Source of the DNA: Parabacteroides sp. OttesenSCG-928-G21
GTDB taxonomy: Bacteria > Bacteroidota > Bacteroidia > Bacteroidales > Tannerellaceae
NCBI GenBank assembly: GCA_030266465.1
Contig: JAJDIA010000004.1
Span: 1 to 48,851, forward strand
Direction of reading: 5' to 3'
Length of the DNA: 48,851 bases
The notes below the pieces were generated by a model. The model did no database searches. It was not told where the DNA came from and saw only the letters and a program-made list of their open reading frames with translations. The position numbers and the translations under genes are program-made. Positions 3,033-48,351 of the stretch are shown here, piece after piece. Numbering within the stretch: the stretch's first letter is position 1; each line of letters opens with the position of its first letter.

Positions 3033-3062
3033 AAAAAGGCTGTTCAATTGAACAGCCTTTTT
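3033..3062. terminator. Bidirectional intrinsic terminator
   Basis: Perfect palindrome AAAAAGGCTGTTCAATTGAACAGCCTTTTT between convergent yebC-like and amylase genes. Confidence 0.9.
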
Positions 3063-13955: not shown

Positions 13956-15065
13956 CTATTTATAAGCTGTTACTTTGATTAAGCGAACCGGACCGTTCGG
14001 ATCATTACATACCACATTGACTAATGCCTCCATTTGGGCTTTTATATCTTTGGGTTGGATAGAAATTTTTATCGTAGTGGAGGCACCCGGTTTTAATTCC
14101 CGTCGACCACCGGAAATATCCAGTCGGTTGTCGTCACTGGTAATGCTATAGATCAACAGAGGAGATTTCCCTGTATTTTTAATGTCAAAGGTTATCGAAG
14201 CCTTTCCGCTTAAAAGAGGCAAGAAGCCACCTTTCTCTGCCACCTTTCCAAATGCCAGCAATGTATTTGATATTTCAGCGACAGGTGCTTGTGCTCTTTC
14301 AGAATTACTAAGTTTGCTGAAATTGTCAATTAGATTGGCGGCGATATGTATGCTTCCGATGATCTCTTTTGTCTCCCCGCCATTTAAGGTTATAGGAAGA
14401 TCTAAGGTCATTCGTCCTTTGTTCTTTGCATTTCTGCCATCCAGCATAACGGTTATTTCTCCGGTTTTCCCCGGCGCGATGGTTTTAGGATTTGCTTCAA
14501 CATGGATGTAATCAGGTGTTTTTCCCAACTGAATAGTTATAGGGACGTCTGATTCATTCATCACATTTATGCGCTCTCCTAATGTTTCAGTAGGTCGCAC
14601 CGAACTGAATAATACCGTTTTCGAAGTCATTTTTAAATCTCCGATCGTATAGGGGTAAACCAATTGTGGCTGCATGGATTTAGGGGTAACAGTCCCCCGG
14701 ATAGCCAATGTTACCGGACTTTTGTTGGCATTACTGTATACGGATATGGTTTTATGGAAAGGGCCCGGACGGCCTTGCGGATCAAAAACAACTTTTATTT
14801 CACCATCCCCACCTGCAGCGATAGGCTCTTTCGACCATTCCGGTTGCGCGCATCCGCAAGAAGCTGTGATACGGGTTATGACTAAAGGGGCTGTCCCTGT
14901 GTTTTTTAGGGTAAACACATGTGCAGCCGGTCCGTCTGCTTCGGCTATGGTTCCGAAATTATAGGTAAGTTCATTGACGCTTATTTCAGCATTATTTTGT
15001 GCCTGTATGGCCCAAACCGTTAATGCCGCAATCAAAGCGAGAACAATCCCTCTAATGTTGCGCAT
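13956..15065 (-). CDS. DUF1573 domain protein, secreted
   Basis: NELTYNFGTIAEADGPAAHVFTLKNTG...ITASCGCAQPEW; signal peptide. Confidence 0.88.
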   Translation of the reverse strand: MRNIRGIVLALIAALTVWAIQAQNNAEISVNELTYNFGTIAEADGPAAHVFTLKNTGTAPLVITRITASCGCAQPEWSKEPIAAGGDGEIKVVFDPQGRPGPFHKTISVYSNANKSPVTLAIRGTVTPKSMQPQLVYPYTIGDLKMTSKTVLFSSVRPTETLGERINVMNESDVPITIQLGKTPDYIHVEANPKTIAPGKTGEITVMLDGRNAKNKGRMTLDLPITLNGGETKEIIGSIHIAANLIDNFSKLSNSERAQAPVAEISNTLLAFGKVAEKGGFLPLLSGKASITFDIKNTGKSPLLIYSITSDDNRLDISGGRRELKPGASTTIKISIQPKDIKAQMEALVNVVCNDPNGPVRLIKVTAYK

Positions 15066-22948: not shown

Positions 22949-25105
22949 TTATTCCTCCTCCTGAGAAGCTTCGTATTCTTTCAATAGTTTTTCCTGTACA
23001 TCGGTTGGAACGAGTTCGTAGCTGGCAAACTTCATGATGAATGAAGCGCGTCCTCCAGTAATGGAACTCAAAGATGTAGAGTAGCTTGACATCTCTTTCA
23101 AAGGCACTTTTGCTTTTAGTTTTTCAAATCCACCTTCGCTTTCCATACCCATGATGATCGCACGGCGTCCTTGCATATCGCTCATTACGTCGCCCAGATA
23201 ATCGGCAGGAACAGATACTTCCACATCATAAACCGGTTCAAGAATCTTCGGGCCTGCATTTTTAAATGCGGTACTAAACGCATTACGTCCTGCAAGCATG
23301 AAGGAGATTTCATTACTATCTACCGGGTGCATCTTTCCATCATAAACGATGATACGTACGTCACGGGCATACGAACCGGTTAATGGTCCTTGCTCCAGAC
23401 GTCCCATAATACCTTTCATGATAGCCGGAAGGAAGCGGGCATCAATAGAACCACCAACGATACTGTTGATAAATACTAATTTACCACCCCATTCCAATTC
23501 AATTGTTTGCGTATCGCGAACACTGATTTTATATTCCTGTCCGTTGAAACGATACATTTCCGGAGCCGGCATACCTTCTGTATATGGCTCAACAATCAGG
23601 TGTACTTCCCCAAACTGACCGGCACCTCCGGACTGTTTCTTATGGCGATAATCGGCACGAGCCATCTTCGTGATCGTTTCACGATAAGGGATCTTCGGCT
23701 CGAAATACTCAATCGCTATCTTGTCGTTGTTTTCAATACGCCATTTCAACGTACGCAGGTGGAATTCACCTTGTCCGGAGATGATTGTTTGTTTCAATTC
23801 TTTGGATTGTTCTACCATCCAGGTCGGATCTTCTTCGTGCATACGAATCAGAATTTCCATCATCTTTTCAGAATCGGATTCGTTAACCGCTTTAACCGCA
23901 CGACGATATTTTGGATCCGGATATTTGATGAAATCAAATTTGAAGTCCCCGCCTTTACCATTCAGCGTATTGCCTCTGCGGATATCTTTCAGTTTTACCG
24001 TAGCACCCAGATCACCTGCTGCCATTTCCGGTACGGTATTACGTGTTTGTCCGGCAACGACGAATAATTGAGCGATACGTTCTTTTGAACCACGATCGGC
24101 ATTAATAAGGTCATCTCCTTCTTTTATTTTTCCTGACATCACTTTAAAGTAAGATACCTGGCCAATATGTGGTTCAATAGTTGTTTTATAGAAGAACAGA
24201 CTGGTTGGTCCGCTTGATTCTACTTTAACTTCAGTTCCGCTTGTAGTTTTAAAGTTCGGCATTTGGTCTGGAGAAGGGGCAACATTTCCTAAGAATTCCA
24301 TCGTGCGACGTACACACATATCGTGTTTCGCGCATACACAGAAGATAGGAAACATCCCACGACTGATAAGACCAGCACGAATACCGTTACGCATTTCATC
24401 TTCACTCAGAGAGCCTTCTTCGAAGAATTTTTCCATCAAGGCATCATCATGTTCGGCGGCTGCTTCAATTAATGCATTATGCAGTTCTTCCGCTTTGTCT
24501 GCCTGATCGGCTGGAATATCCAACACTTCCGGTTCGCCACCTTCGGGTTTCCATTTGTACATTTTCATTTTCAACACGTCGATAACGGCATTGAATCCGG
24601 CGCCAGTGCTTACCGGATATTGAATTTGTACAGCCTTACTGCCCCAGCGTTCTTTCAGTTGAGTAACGGTGCTGTCATAATCTGCCTTGTCATTATCCAA
24701 ATGATTTACAAGGAAAACTACCGGTTTTTTAACTTGTTCGGTATAACGGAATTGATTGATTGTTCCCACTTCAACACCATATTGGGCGTTGAGTACCATG
24801 ATAGCCGACTCGGTTACGTTTAACGCTGTAACAACGTTTCCTGCAAAGTCGTCAGACCCCGGACAATCAATGAAATTCAGTTTTTTATTCATCCACTCTA
24901 CACTAAAAACGGTTGAGAATACTGAGTAACCATACTCTTTCTCAACCGGGAAATAGTCAGATACTGTGTTTCCCGCTTCAACAGTACCGCGACGTTTTAT
25001 AACTCCACCCTCGAAAAGCATAGCTTCAGCGAGAGTGGTTTTCCCAGAGCCGGAACTTCCCAAAAGAGCGATGTTCCTAATTTCGTTTGTTTGATATACT
25101 TTCAT
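22949..25105 (-). CDS. Elongation factor G paralog (EF-G2-like) with divergent G domain
   Basis: Full-length EF-G architecture (718 aa), but G motifs read GSSGSGKTT, DCPGSDDF and NHLD. Confidence 0.92.
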   Translation of the reverse strand: MKVYQTNEIRNIALLGSSGSGKTTLAEAMLFEGGVIKRRGTVEAGNTVSDYFPVEKEYGYSVFSTVFSVEWMNKKLNFIDCPGSDDFAGNVVTALNVTESAIMVLNAQYGVEVGTINQFRYTEQVKKPVVFLVNHLDNDKADYDSTVTQLKERWGSKAVQIQYPVSTGAGFNAVIDVLKMKMYKWKPEGGEPEVLDIPADQADKAEELHNALIEAAAEHDDALMEKFFEEGSLSEDEMRNGIRAGLISRGMFPIFCVCAKHDMCVRRTMEFLGNVAPSPDQMPNFKTTSGTEVKVESSGPTSLFFYKTTIEPHIGQVSYFKVMSGKIKEGDDLINADRGSKERIAQLFVVAGQTRNTVPEMAAGDLGATVKLKDIRRGNTLNGKGGDFKFDFIKYPDPKYRRAVKAVNESDSEKMMEILIRMHEEDPTWMVEQSKELKQTIISGQGEFHLRTLKWRIENNDKIAIEYFEPKIPYRETITKMARADYRHKKQSGGAGQFGEVHLIVEPYTEGMPAPEMYRFNGQEYKISVRDTQTIELEWGGKLVFINSIVGGSIDARFLPAIMKGIMGRLEQGPLTGSYARDVRIIVYDGKMHPVDSNEISFMLAGRNAFSTAFKNAGPKILEPVYDVEVSVPADYLGDVMSDMQGRRAIIMGMESEGGFEKLKAKVPLKEMSSYSTSLSSITGGRASFIMKFASYELVPTDVQEKLLKEYEASQEEE

Positions 25106-25407
25106 GATATCAGGATATTTTAATTAGTTTAACAATGTAATTCAGAGCTAACTTTTTAAGAGGTCGCAAATTATAGATTGTCGAAGTAAAAAACAATTCC
25201 ATAGCAGTGTTGTATAACATTGTTTTTTAGCATTATTCCCCGTATTTCAAAGTTGATATTCTGTCTGTCAATCAATTAAAATGTAGGGAGAGGTAAAAAA
25301 TCTTTTTATTTCACTAATCTTTTCATGGTAATCAACTATACCTCTACTCCTTATCAACTTCATTTTTCTTGCTGATGAACTTCTTCTTTTTTCTGCATGA
25401 TGTTATA

Positions 25408-25491
25408 ATACGCCCATGGGCGTATATATATTCTCCAATGGGAGTACTAATATACACGCATGGGAGTATTAATATTCACCCATGGGTGTAT
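25408..25491. repeat. Array A: four imperfect palindromes at 22-bp period
   Basis: ATACGCCCATGGGCGTAT (25408-25425), ATTCTCCAATGGGAGTAC (25430-25447), third unit centred at 25460, ATTCACCCATGGGTGTAT (25474-25491). ATGGG at 25416, 25438, 25460 and 25482. Confidence 0.9.
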
Positions 25492-25615
25492 TATAACTGA
25501 ATGCTGATGAAACAGCTACTTTATGCGGAAGAAAAGGTAATAACATGCTGATGAAATGATTAGTTTTAGGGGGAAAGATTTATCTTTACAGTTGAATTAG
25601 CAGATTGTCAAACAC

Positions 25616-26743
25616 ATGGCCGGATTATACCTGCATATCCCTTTTTGCGCAAAACGATGTATCTATTGTGATTTCTATTCGAATACGGATATGAAGTTGA
25701 AGGAGAGATATGTGGATATGCTTATTCGTGAAATGGAACTACGGAAAGGCTACCTGAGGAATGAACCCTTGAAAACGATTTATTTCGGTGGCGGAACACC
25801 TTCTTTATTTAATGTATCGGAATTTGAGCGTATTTTTTCTGCTATCGATACCTGTTTTGATGTTTCCGATTGTCGGGAAATAACTCTGGAGGCCAATCCG
25901 GATGATTTGACGGCTGAATATGTACAAGCGCTTCGGAGTTTTCCGTTTAATCGGGTGAGTCTTGGCGTACAAAGTTTTCAGCAGAAGGACTTGGATTTCC
26001 TGAATCGCAGACATACGGTTGGTCAGGCGGTCGATGCTGTGAGAAGATGTCAGGAACGTGGGTTGAGTAATATGAGTGTAGACCTGATGTATGGGCTTCC
26101 GGGGCAGACGATGGAAGAGTGGGAGAGCAATCTGCAGAAGGTGGTAGCGTTGGAAGTTCCTCATGTTTCGGCTTATCATCTTACTTACGAAGAGGGAACG
26201 AGACTGGATCAATTACTGAAAGGTGGAAATATCACGGCTGTTGATGAAGACACAAGTCATGCGATGTATGAAATGTTGGTGGACCGGCTTACTCAATCAG
26301 GCTATCTGCATTATGAGATTTCCAATTTTGCGCAACCTGGTTGTGTTTCACAGCATAACAGCTCCTATTGGCTTGGTGAGAGCTATTTGGGTTTAGGTCC
26401 GTCGGCACATTCTTATAATGGGGAAGTACGCCAGTGGAATGTGTCTTCTTTAGTGCGTTATCTGGAGGGAGTAGCCACTGATAAACTGCTGTTTGAGCAG
26501 GAAGAGTTAGATTTGAATACGCGCTACAATGATTATGTAATGACTCGTTTGCGGACGATGTGGGGGGTCGATATTGACGAAATAAAAACAATATTTGGTG
26601 ACCAACTGGCGAATTATACAATAAGTCTGTCTGAAGAAAATGTGGGAAAGGGACTTATGGTAAGGAGCGGGAAAGGTTATCGTCTGACAGACGAAAGTTT
26701 TTTTACTTCTGATGGGATTATTTGTGATTTTTTAAGAATATGA
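25616..26743 (+). CDS. hemW: HemW-like radical SAM protein (coproporphyrinogen III oxidase-like)
   Basis: MAGLYLHIPFCAKRCIYCDFYS, YFGGGTPSLF, SLGVQSF, LMYGLPGQT. Confidence 0.93.
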   Translation: MAGLYLHIPFCAKRCIYCDFYSNTDMKLKERYVDMLIREMELRKGYLRNEPLKTIYFGGGTPSLFNVSEFERIFSAIDTCFDVSDCREITLEANPDDLTAEYVQALRSFPFNRVSLGVQSFQQKDLDFLNRRHTVGQAVDAVRRCQERGLSNMSVDLMYGLPGQTMEEWESNLQKVVALEVPHVSAYHLTYEEGTRLDQLLKGGNITAVDEDTSHAMYEMLVDRLTQSGYLHYEISNFAQPGCVSQHNSSYWLGESYLGLGPSAHSYNGEVRQWNVSSLVRYLEGVATDKLLFEQEELDLNTRYNDYVMTRLRTMWGVDIDEIKTIFGDQLANYTISLSEENVGKGLMVRSGKGYRLTDESFFTSDGIICDFLRI

Positions 26744-26874
26744 TTTTATTACGAACCCCCCGCTTTCGGACAACGAACTGGCGGTTTTGGAGTATATCTT
26801 CTTTCGGATTTTCACTATTTTTGATGATTAATATAATTGTAATATAAAAGTAATGCTTATATTTGTCGCGTCAA

Positions 26875-27462
26875 ATGAAGCAGAGCGTGCCATATTTGTA
26901 CATAATATCTGGTTGCAATGGAGCAGGTAAAACGACAGCCTCTTTTACAATTTTGCCCGAAATGCTTAAGTGTAAAGAGTTTGTCAACTCCGACGAGATA
27001 GCTAAGGGGCTTTCCCCTTTTAATTCTGATAGTATCGCGGTTGCTATTGAAGCTAGTAGAATTATGTATAAACGCATTAAAGAATTACTCTCATCGGGGG
27101 AGACTTTTGCAATGGAGACGACACTGGCGACCCGTTCAGTTGCAAATCTGATACGGGAAGCACAAGAGAAGGGTTACTACGTTACGCTATTGTATTTCTG
27201 GCTGAATACGCCGGATTTAGCTGTGGAACGTGTTAAAATGAGGGTGGCTGCCGGCGGGCACAATATACCAGAAAGTACGATTAGACGAAGATATGCTGCG
27301 GGTATTCGTAATTTATTTCAGCTCTACCTCCCTGTTAGTGACTATTGGATGATAACTGACAACTCCATGACGCCTATGGAAATTGTAGCCAAAGGTTTTA
27401 AAGGAGATAAAAAAGAGATCTATAATCCGATTATTTATAATAAACTTGAACATCATGAGTGA
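26875..27462 (+). CDS. Zeta-toxin family P-loop kinase
   Basis: YIISGCNGAGKTTASFTILPE Walker A, VNSDEIAKGLSP, FAMETTLATRS. The ORF track starts at TTG 26863; ATG at 26875 preferred. Confidence 0.85.
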   Translation: MKQSVPYLYIISGCNGAGKTTASFTILPEMLKCKEFVNSDEIAKGLSPFNSDSIAVAIEASRIMYKRIKELLSSGETFAMETTLATRSVANLIREAQEKGYYVTLLYFWLNTPDLAVERVKMRVAAGGHNIPESTIRRRYAAGIRNLFQLYLPVSDYWMITDNSMTPMEIVAKGFKGDKKEIYNPIIYNKLEHHE

Positions 27463-32007: not shown

Positions 32008-32155
32008 CTTAATATAATCTTTCGTATCCACAAAGGTAAAAAATATATTCAATAAATGAGAAAGGGGATTTCATCAGCATTTTCAACTCTTTTCATCACC
32101 GTTCTTTTCTGTAGTCATTTGTAGAAAAAATCCGTTATACCCATATCTGTTTTTA

Positions 32156-32239
32156 TTTAGACCCGGGTCTAAATCAGATTACACCCGGGTCTAATTTTAT
32201 TTATACCCCCGTCTAAATAGATTTATACCCGGGTCTAAA
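32156..32239. repeat. Array B: four palindromes at 22-bp period
   Basis: TTTAGACCCGGGTCTAAA (32156), ATTACACCCGGGTCTAAT (32178), TTTATACCCCCGTCTAAA (32200), TTTATACCCGGGTCTAAA (32222); 4-nt spacers. Confidence 0.95.
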
Positions 32240-32434
32240 CAAAAATTAGTTGCAATGAAAAGATATTTTCATCAGCAGGAAAAGATAAATTCATGACGAT
32301 GAAACGAACAGAATGTATAAAAATAGCCTGTTTAGGTGCTTTATTTGTGAAATTGTGTGTGGCGGAAATGCCTTTTCAAGCGTTTCTTTTGTTAATTTTG
32401 TGCTGAAATTCGGAAATAATCTTTTTCGGATAGG

Positions 32435-39960: not shown

Positions 39961-39996
39961 GCAGGCTGTTTTTACAGTAAAAACGGCCTGCTTTTT
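39961..39996 (+). terminator. Intrinsic terminator after folA
   Basis: GCAGGCtGTTTTTacagtAAAAACgGCCTGC then TTTTT. Confidence 0.85.
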
Positions 39997-40080
39997 CATT
40001 GTTTACTTTTCCATGTAACATAAGCCTGTTTTTCTTGTGGTATTGTATCCTTTTTTCAGCAAGACACAGGTGCTTTTTTG

Positions 40081-40164
40081 TTTAGACCCGGGTGTAAATC
40101 AGATTATACCCGGGTATAAATTAGATTACACCCGGGTCTAAATGAATTTACACCCGGGTCTAAA
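40081..40164. repeat. Array C: four palindromes at 22-bp period
   Basis: TTTAGACCCGGGTGTAAA (40081), ATTATACCCGGGTATAAA (40103), ATTACACCCGGGTCTAAA (40125), TTTACACCCGGGTCTAAA (40147); 4-nt spacers. Confidence 0.95.
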
Positions 40165-40400
40165 TAATTTTTTGATCTTATGGATCAAATTTTAGGATGT
40201 AATGAATCAGAGAAAACAATGTGGTGGATAGAAGGAAAGCCGGAAGGTCTCATGAAGAATGTGAGGTGATTCATTATTAGCGTAATAGCCTGTTTTCGGA
40301 TAAATATTACTCCTTATTAACATATATTTGACATATTTTTACCTTTAATTTGTATCTATATGGGTATTACAACTGTTTTTATTGTAGATAAAAAATAAAA

Positions 40401-46984: not shown

Positions 46985-48052
46985 TCATCTCGCTTTATTA
47001 AGCAAAACATAATCCAGCAAAGTCATGGCCGTCATTGCTTCAACAATCGGTACGGCTCTGGGTACTACGCAGGCATCATGGCGCCCACGTGCGCAAAGTG
47101 TAGTTTCTTCTCCTTCAATAGTTACGGTAGGTTGTTCCATCAGAACGGTAGCAACCGGTTTAAAAGCCACCCGGAAATAGATATCTTCGCCATTGGATAT
47201 GCCGCCTTGTATGCCTCCCGAATGATTTGTGCGCGTGCGGATTTGTCCGTTATCGTTATAGAAAATGTCATTTCGCTCGGAACCGCGATATTTCGTACCT
47301 TCAAATCCGTCTCCGTATTCAAAACCTTTAGCCGCATTAATGCTTAACATAGCGTTTCCTAAAGCGGCATGGAGTTTGCCGAATACAGGCTCTCCCAAAC
47401 CTACGGGAACGCCATAAACCACACAGGTAATAACCCCGCCAATCGTATCTCCCTGGGAACGTACTTCCCGGATCAGGGCTTCCATCTCCGCCGCTTTTTC
47501 GTTGTCCGGACAACGAACAGGATTGTTTTCCGTTAAGCGCAAATCATAATCCGTATACTTACCGGTAAGGACGATAGTACCTACCTGCGAGGTGAAAGCT
47601 TGTATTCGTATATCGTAATGATGTAAAACCTGTTTGGCAATAGCACCGGCTACTACACGGGCAATCGTTTCCCGGGCGGACGAGCGTCCTCCTCCCCGGG
47701 GGTCACGCAAACCATATTTACTTTGATAGGTGTAATCAGCATGTGAAGGACGATACTTCTGTTTGATCTCTTCATAATCGGAAGAGTGCTGGTTTGTGTT
47801 CCGTACAAGGAATCCGATAGGCGTACCTGTTGTCACCCCTTCATATACCCCGGAAAGCAATTCCACCTCGTCCGCCTCTTTCCGGGGCGTACTGATCGCG
47901 GACTGTCCGGGACGGCGACGCTGCATCTCTTGTGAAAGAAGATCCATATCCAGCCGAATTCCTGCCGGACAACCATCAATCACCCCTCCGATAGCAGCAC
48001 CATGTGATTCACCAAAAGAGGTAAGCCGGTATATATTCCCGAAATGATTCAT
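46985..48052 (-). CDS. aroC: Chorismate synthase
   Basis: [67 protein letters not shown]. Confidence 0.98.
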
Positions 48053-48130: not shown

Positions 48131-48351
48131 GTATCTCAGTTCCCCTTCTTAGCAAAGAAGGGGGCGGACCGCCGCTTTGCGGTGGTGGGGTAGTTTGGTA
48201 TATATATCCTTTAAAACAGTTTGTATGTAATAAAATATATTTATTATTTATATTAGAAGAAAAAATAGGACGACATTATAAAAATCAAACTACCCCACCA
48301 CTGCAAGCAGCGGTCCGCCCCCTTCTTTGCTAAGAAGGGGAGCTGAGATAC
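48131..48351. repeat. REPIN-like inverted-repeat element
   Basis: Arms 48131-48197 and 48286-48351 are near-perfect reverse complements. Each arm contains the hairpin CCCCTTCTTAGCAAAGAAGGGG. Confidence 0.75.

Follow-up and report, generated by a model that had tools for sequence, protein, structure and literature searches.

The window analysed here is the whole stretch of 48,851 nucleotides of Parabacteroides sp. OttesenSCG-928-G21 (contig JAJDIA010000004.1, positions 1 to 48,851 of the forward strand). Array A, the feature under study, lies in the divergent intergenic region between an EF-G-like GTPase gene on its left (22949-25105, minus strand; PF00009, PF03764 and PF00679) and a hemW-like radical SAM gene on its right (25616-26743, plus strand; PF04055), in agreement with an earlier sequence-only reading of this DNA. 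Directly downstream of hemW a Zeta-toxin/AAA-type kinase gene is located at 26863-27462, and the gene order EF-G, hemW, kinase, S46 peptidase is kept in other genera of the family.

The core of array A (25408-25491) consists of four 18-bp palindromic units at 25408-25425, 25430-25447, 25452-25469 and 25474-25491, which are separated by 4-bp AT spacers and belong to a core type with the pattern CC-NNNN-GG (type I); like all array features described below it carries no strand. The previously noticed period holds, the spacing being exactly 22 bp, and ATGGG lies at 25416, 25438, 25460 and 25482 as had been listed. The first unit, ATACGCCCATGGGCGTAT, is indeed a perfect 18-bp palindrome (9/9 pairs). 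The remaining three units had been called degenerate, which fits the second (6/9 pairs) and the third (7/9) but not really the fourth, where 8/9 pairs are retained. For the chance level, palindromic pairs were summed over four consecutive units at periods of 16-30, ignoring the sequence content. Array A reaches 30/36 and the two other arrays of the window, B and C, reach 31 each, whereas all remaining positions and periods stay at 23 or below. In 200 Markov-1 simulations of the window the maximum was 26 across all 15 periods and 24 at period 22. The observation of array A is real.

Arrays B (core at 32156-32239) and C (core at 40081-40164) each comprise four units of a second core type (type II, CCCGGG-type), with TTANACCCGGGTNTAA as the unit type in array B. 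The former is found in the divergent gap between an Smr/DUF2027 gene and queA, the latter in the codirectional gap between a dihydrofolate reductase gene and an alpha-2-macroglobulin gene. The window also contains lone perfect 18-bp palindromes outside the arrays (GCTGTTCAATTGAACAGC at 3039-3056 and TCGTTGTCCGGACAACGA at 47499-47516) as well as two 18-bp near-palindromes, CCTTCTTAGCAAAGAAGG (48144-48161) and CCTTCTTTGCTAAGAAGG (48321-48338), which are mutual reverse complements 177 bp apart.

The draft genome to which the window belongs (1.86 Mb, 54% complete) was searched for further arrays with BLAST and sequence patterns and by fetching stretches. Seven type I and eleven type II arrays were obtained, and none of the 18 mixes the two types. 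The half-sites are 9 bp long in both, ATWC-N-CCMN in type I and NTTA-N-ACCC in type II, and in each the fifth base from the centre is the variable one; the types thus differ in their letters and are equal in length. Array A had been taken for a second subfamily with preserved spacing and an altered, longer centre. The subfamily and the spacing stand, but the centre is not longer, as type I and type II units are both 18-bp palindromes in the same frame. The supposed 2 additional bp are a framing effect, which disappears once both half-sites are read outwards from the centre. Type I cores are heterogeneous (CCATGG, CCAATTGG, CCAGCTGG and CCAACTGG) and some of them co-occur in one array. Clustering by core, which had been proposed as a check, gives homogeneous arrays at the level of type I versus type II but not within type I, where half-sites CCCA and CCAN stand together in a single array (L004, L007). 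In type II the odd unit ACCCCCGT is found in the identical slot of several arrays (L009, L013 and L014). Mixing within a type, together with this recurrent odd unit, speaks for the copying of entire arrays or elements and against independent homogenisation of the units.

The array does not end at 25408 and 25491, since in-register arm units carry the element to about 25342-25557. The array forms the central part of a larger symmetric element, some ten 22-bp units or about 220-240 bp in length, which in type I is laid out as three arm units, four core units and three arm units. The left arm of element A (25342-25403) comprises three degenerate in-register units, the best of which is TTTTCTTGCTGATGAACT at 25364-25381, and was assigned on the basis of the TTCATC/GATGAA register in the flanks; the right arm (25496-25557) comprises the in-register units ACTGAATGCTGATGAAAC, ACTTTATGCGGAAGAAAA and ATAACATGCTGATGAAAT. 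Homology of element A to other elements of the genome reaches about +157 from the core start. The full element B (32068-32305) has in-register arms: on the left TTTCATCAGC and TTTCATCACC stand at a distance of 22 bp, and the right arm has TTTTCATCAGCAGGAAAA and AATTCATGACGATGAAAC. The full element C (39993-40230) shares about 244 bp of homology, core and arms included, with elements on contigs C132 and C73. Type II elements may carry a fifth GC-rich unit on one side. Of 22 TTCATC motifs in the flanks of the arrays of this genome, 20 share a single phase of the 22-bp register, and 12 of 13 GATGAA motifs likewise share one (P about 3e-25 and about 1e-15, respectively, for independent hits, both overstated because the elements of one genome are related by descent). 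These in-register palindromic arms are common to type I and type II elements. The genus g11, which has the CCATGG core of array A, carries different arm motifs locked to the same 22-bp register. The elements are real, phased, palindromic, modular and dispersed.

The main rival to a function in the host is an interspersed repeat resembling MITEs or REPs, selfish or inert and spreading non-autonomously, in which a transposase binding the tandem palindromes would set the 22-bp geometry without any host benefit. We consider this a possible but not a probable account. Copies of about 235 bp stand at unrelated loci in both orientations, the best full-length pairs being 81-87% identical, which is what such a repeat would produce. 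The homology between full copies is symmetric and reaches about 76 bp past the core on each side. As is typical for MITEs, the elements are short (about 220-240 bp), non-coding, intergenic and multi-copy, with 18 copies in 1.86 Mb. Neither a target-site duplication nor a clear terminal repeat was recognised in elements that are two-fold symmetric throughout and have fuzzy ends, the sole empty site (in the relative G020) being too strongly diverged for reading a duplication. Counting against a selfish repeat, no transposase, including those of the Y1/HUH RAYT kind, was present among the array neighbours scanned, array A had no counterpart in the phage and plasmid collections, and viral contigs yielded no array in three pattern scans. 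The pattern matches in viral contigs were 11-bp simple repeats and were discarded.

The history of single loci bears on the same question from both sides. In g11, all 8 testable loci keep the array in both of two ~97%-identical genomes. One of these loci, compared between G058 and G010, has flanks that match almost completely and do not differ in length, while roughly half of the core positions are different, the core having been replaced by another CANNTG variant with the register unchanged. Retention in a sister species and core turnover in place at constant length are not what a selfish repeat would lead us to expect. In its favour, the more distant G020 has an array-free site among its three readable loci, where the flanking homologies lie 51 bp apart and not 293 bp; of the other two loci, one has the same core type and one has another. 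Furthermore, the array-bearing gaps are mostly different from genus to genus, and slower evolution of array positions was not detected (4.1% vs 5.5% in the flanks, P=0.34, seven g11 orthologous pairs with low power).

The gap between EF-G and hemW carries arrays in four genera (the own genus and those of G012, G019 and G024), each with a different core. Based on an expectation estimated from the array density and the count of long gaps, 3 arrays were seen in 24 relatives against about 1.6 expected, which weakens the case for this gap as a special conserved site, and because of the array density we do not count its recurrence as beyond chance. When array neighbours were compared without bias, no further gap was clearly common to several genera. 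Divergent gaps contain 20 of 40 arrays examined, compared with 25 of 86 background gaps of at least 180 bp, an excess that is suggestive only, as genes were called mechanically and the arrays include orthologues. The neighbouring genes scanned were ordinary, with no recurrent regulator among them.

The geometry is family-wide, and the letters are lineage-specific. At least nine genera of the family carry arrays of this 22-bp geometry that are unrelated in sequence, with cores such as CCATGG, CCCGGG, GGTACC, GGTAGG, CANNTG, ACCGGT, TAATTA and TATATA in the different genera. The cores of relatives include TGACACCCGGGTGTCA (G001), TTACACCYRGGTGTAA (G006), TTTAGAGGTACCTCTAAA (G012), TTTAGAGGTAGGTCTAAA (G017), GTTCNACANNTGTNGAAC (G019) and CCCATGGG, which is found in both G010 and G058. 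A pattern for the type of G019, TTCNACANNTGTNGAA, matched in 16 of 125 genomes and 8 of 16 genera, while the reversed control pattern gave zero matches. In an unbiased scan, 15 four-palindrome arrays at period 22 were detected in ~1 Mb from eight genomes of the family, two of them weak and at the threshold score (one each in G014 and G002); the 14 other periods jointly gave 6 matches in about 1.2 Mb from ten genomes. Of the period-22 arrays, 7 came from 140 kb of G007, with cores of the ACCGGT, TAATTA and CACANNTGTG types. No period-22 array was found in about 0.64 Mb sampled from five other families. The type I pattern was searched among 393 genomes of the order, a draw that excluded G010 and G058, and apart from two two-unit look-alikes it was present in the own genome only; the look-alikes, in G341 and G421 of another family, were rejected as arrays. 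In a genome of another family two parS-like sites of the TGTTCCACGTGGAACA type, 26 bp apart, were noted on L316 from about position 14258.

A minisatellite grown by ordinary slippage, palindromic by accident, would explain tandem units of equal length. It is very unlikely in view of a nearly fixed unit number, capping on both sides, an odd unit that recurs at one and the same slot in several arrays, arms in register but of different sequence, and a single period shared with unrelated letters by many genera.

In G019, all 17 arrays examined fit a frame of four units and 84 bp, nearly all with both caps. Here the outer half-sites read RTCCCACA and the inner ones GTTCNACA. The fifth base is C in 32 of 34 outer half-sites of G019 and G in 18 of 20 outer half-sites of the own type II. 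At this variable position the two halves of inner units in G019 are alike in 6 of 34 cases (15.9 expected, P=0.0003), and the bases facing each other across spacers in 15 of 51 (25.2 expected, P=0.002). The own type II shows the same deficit (3 of 30 vs 9.3 expected, P=0.007). The letters thus keep the half-sites and yet avoid lengthening the palindromes, which is the opposite of what would be expected from a selected hairpin. The asymmetry of G019 is not shown by the own type I, the type of array A, of which only seven arrays are known.

These data speak to the idea that pairing of a structured RNA or a cruciform is selected, as in a terminator, an mRNA stabiliser or an extruded hairpin. Single units and whole arrays are self-complementary, at one g11 locus both core arms changed together with complementarity kept, and the own type I has some excess complementarity, at the centre alone (P 0.02-0.03). 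In G019 and the own type II, however, complementarity at the variable positions is not in excess and often falls below expectation, be it within units, across spacers or between array halves, so that these statistics gave no support to an RNA hairpin. The substitutions between orthologous arrays are mostly single and uncompensated, and half of the arrays examined lie in divergent gaps, where a read-through transcript is not expected. In Rfam no family reaches the gathering score for array A, which weakly matches miRNA hairpin models far below the curated cut-offs. Taken together, we regard selected pairing as improbable.

Tandem palindromes at near-constant spacing that are bound by adjacent dimers are well known from the ARG boxes of ArgR, the met boxes of MetJ and the OR/OL operators of phage lambda. 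These operator arrays serve few regulated operons with one consensus, whereas here up to 7 arrays stand in 140 kb and several core sequences coexist in one genome. The sites of ParB/Noc or SlmA are 12-16 bp palindromes dispersed round the chromosome and read by spreading dimers, but they are single sites and not phased arrays. None of the arrays studied here could be tied to a binder of the latter kind. They are not CRISPR arrays, which have near-identical repeats and unique spacers of 20-plus nt, as the repeats here are degenerate and the spacers are 4 bp of AT.

With REPs and BIMEs the elements share short palindromes, multiple intergenic copies, composite clusters and lineage-specific letters. 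REPs of the two large super-families are tagged on one side with GTAG or CGTC (PMC3733652), and the orientation of the REPs alternates within BIMEs (PMC2817692). In contrast, the 18-bp units described here are untagged and two-fold symmetric (neither tag is carried by the unit consensus ATWCNCCNNNNGGNGWAT or NTTANACCCGGGTNTAAN), and about four capped core units follow each other head-to-tail in a 22-bp register. The BrickBuilt MITE of Porphyromonas gingivalis, another Bacteroidales member, has 23-nt repeats in 1 to 22.8 copies, with no BLASTn match reported outside the species (PMC4596501). It is similar in being intergenic and multi-copy and in having a minisatellite with tandem units of comparable length, flanked by leader and tail segments. 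It differs from our elements, in which the unit is palindromic and 22 bp long, the number of about four core units is nearly fixed and the geometry is family-wide. P. gingivalis W83 is also said to contain unspecified 22-nt tandem repeats (PMC4596501). The 77-bp inverted repeat at the capsule locus of P. gingivalis was set aside, as it has two 77-bp arms round a loop and is not a phased array. A literature search, which largely did not reach subscription journals so that absence there is weak, found no published description of 22-bp palindrome arrays.

In the reading we favour, to which we give a probability of roughly 0.5, array A is the core of one copy of a dispersed modular element, a platform on which a dimeric sequence-specific protein would polymerise at a 22-bp pitch. 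From the layout we infer that each 22-bp unit would be the site of one dimer and that neighbouring dimers would be packed at intervals of 22 bp, or about two turns of the helix, forming a short capped row. The CCATGG and CCCGGG cores would be read by binders of different specificity, either paralogues or one protein before and after a change in specificity, and cores would pass between elements by recombination via the shared arms. The row is probably a local chromosome or promoter platform between the adjoining genes, with insulation, repression or nucleoid organisation as possible roles. This platform reading is favoured by the excess of period 22, the geometry without common sequence, the capped four-unit frame, the fifth-base deficit, the in-register arms and the core exchange, and it is weakened by the lack of a recurrent regulator nearby, of slower array evolution and of half-site asymmetry in type I. 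More tentatively, and rather doubtful as a whole, the arrays might belong to a family-wide system for organising or insulating the chromosome, in which a putative dimeric protein occupies dozens to perhaps hundreds of 22-bp-phased arrays per genome, the recognition sequence diversifying and several specificities coexisting while the pitch stays fixed.

If the arrays are protein platforms, this family of Bacteroidales has a global DNA-binding system that is known only by its landing sites, and the fixed 22-bp pitch with free letters offers a direct handle for finding the protein. The same handle would serve to study how a DNA-binding family shifts its specificity while its assembly geometry stays. 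If they are selfish, they represent a class of modular repeats with common arms, between which core cassettes are exchanged. A gene for an HU-HIG protein (HU fused to a winged helix; L276, 13435-14031) is located 37 bp from an array in G007, and its product is a possible DNA-binding partner of the arrays.
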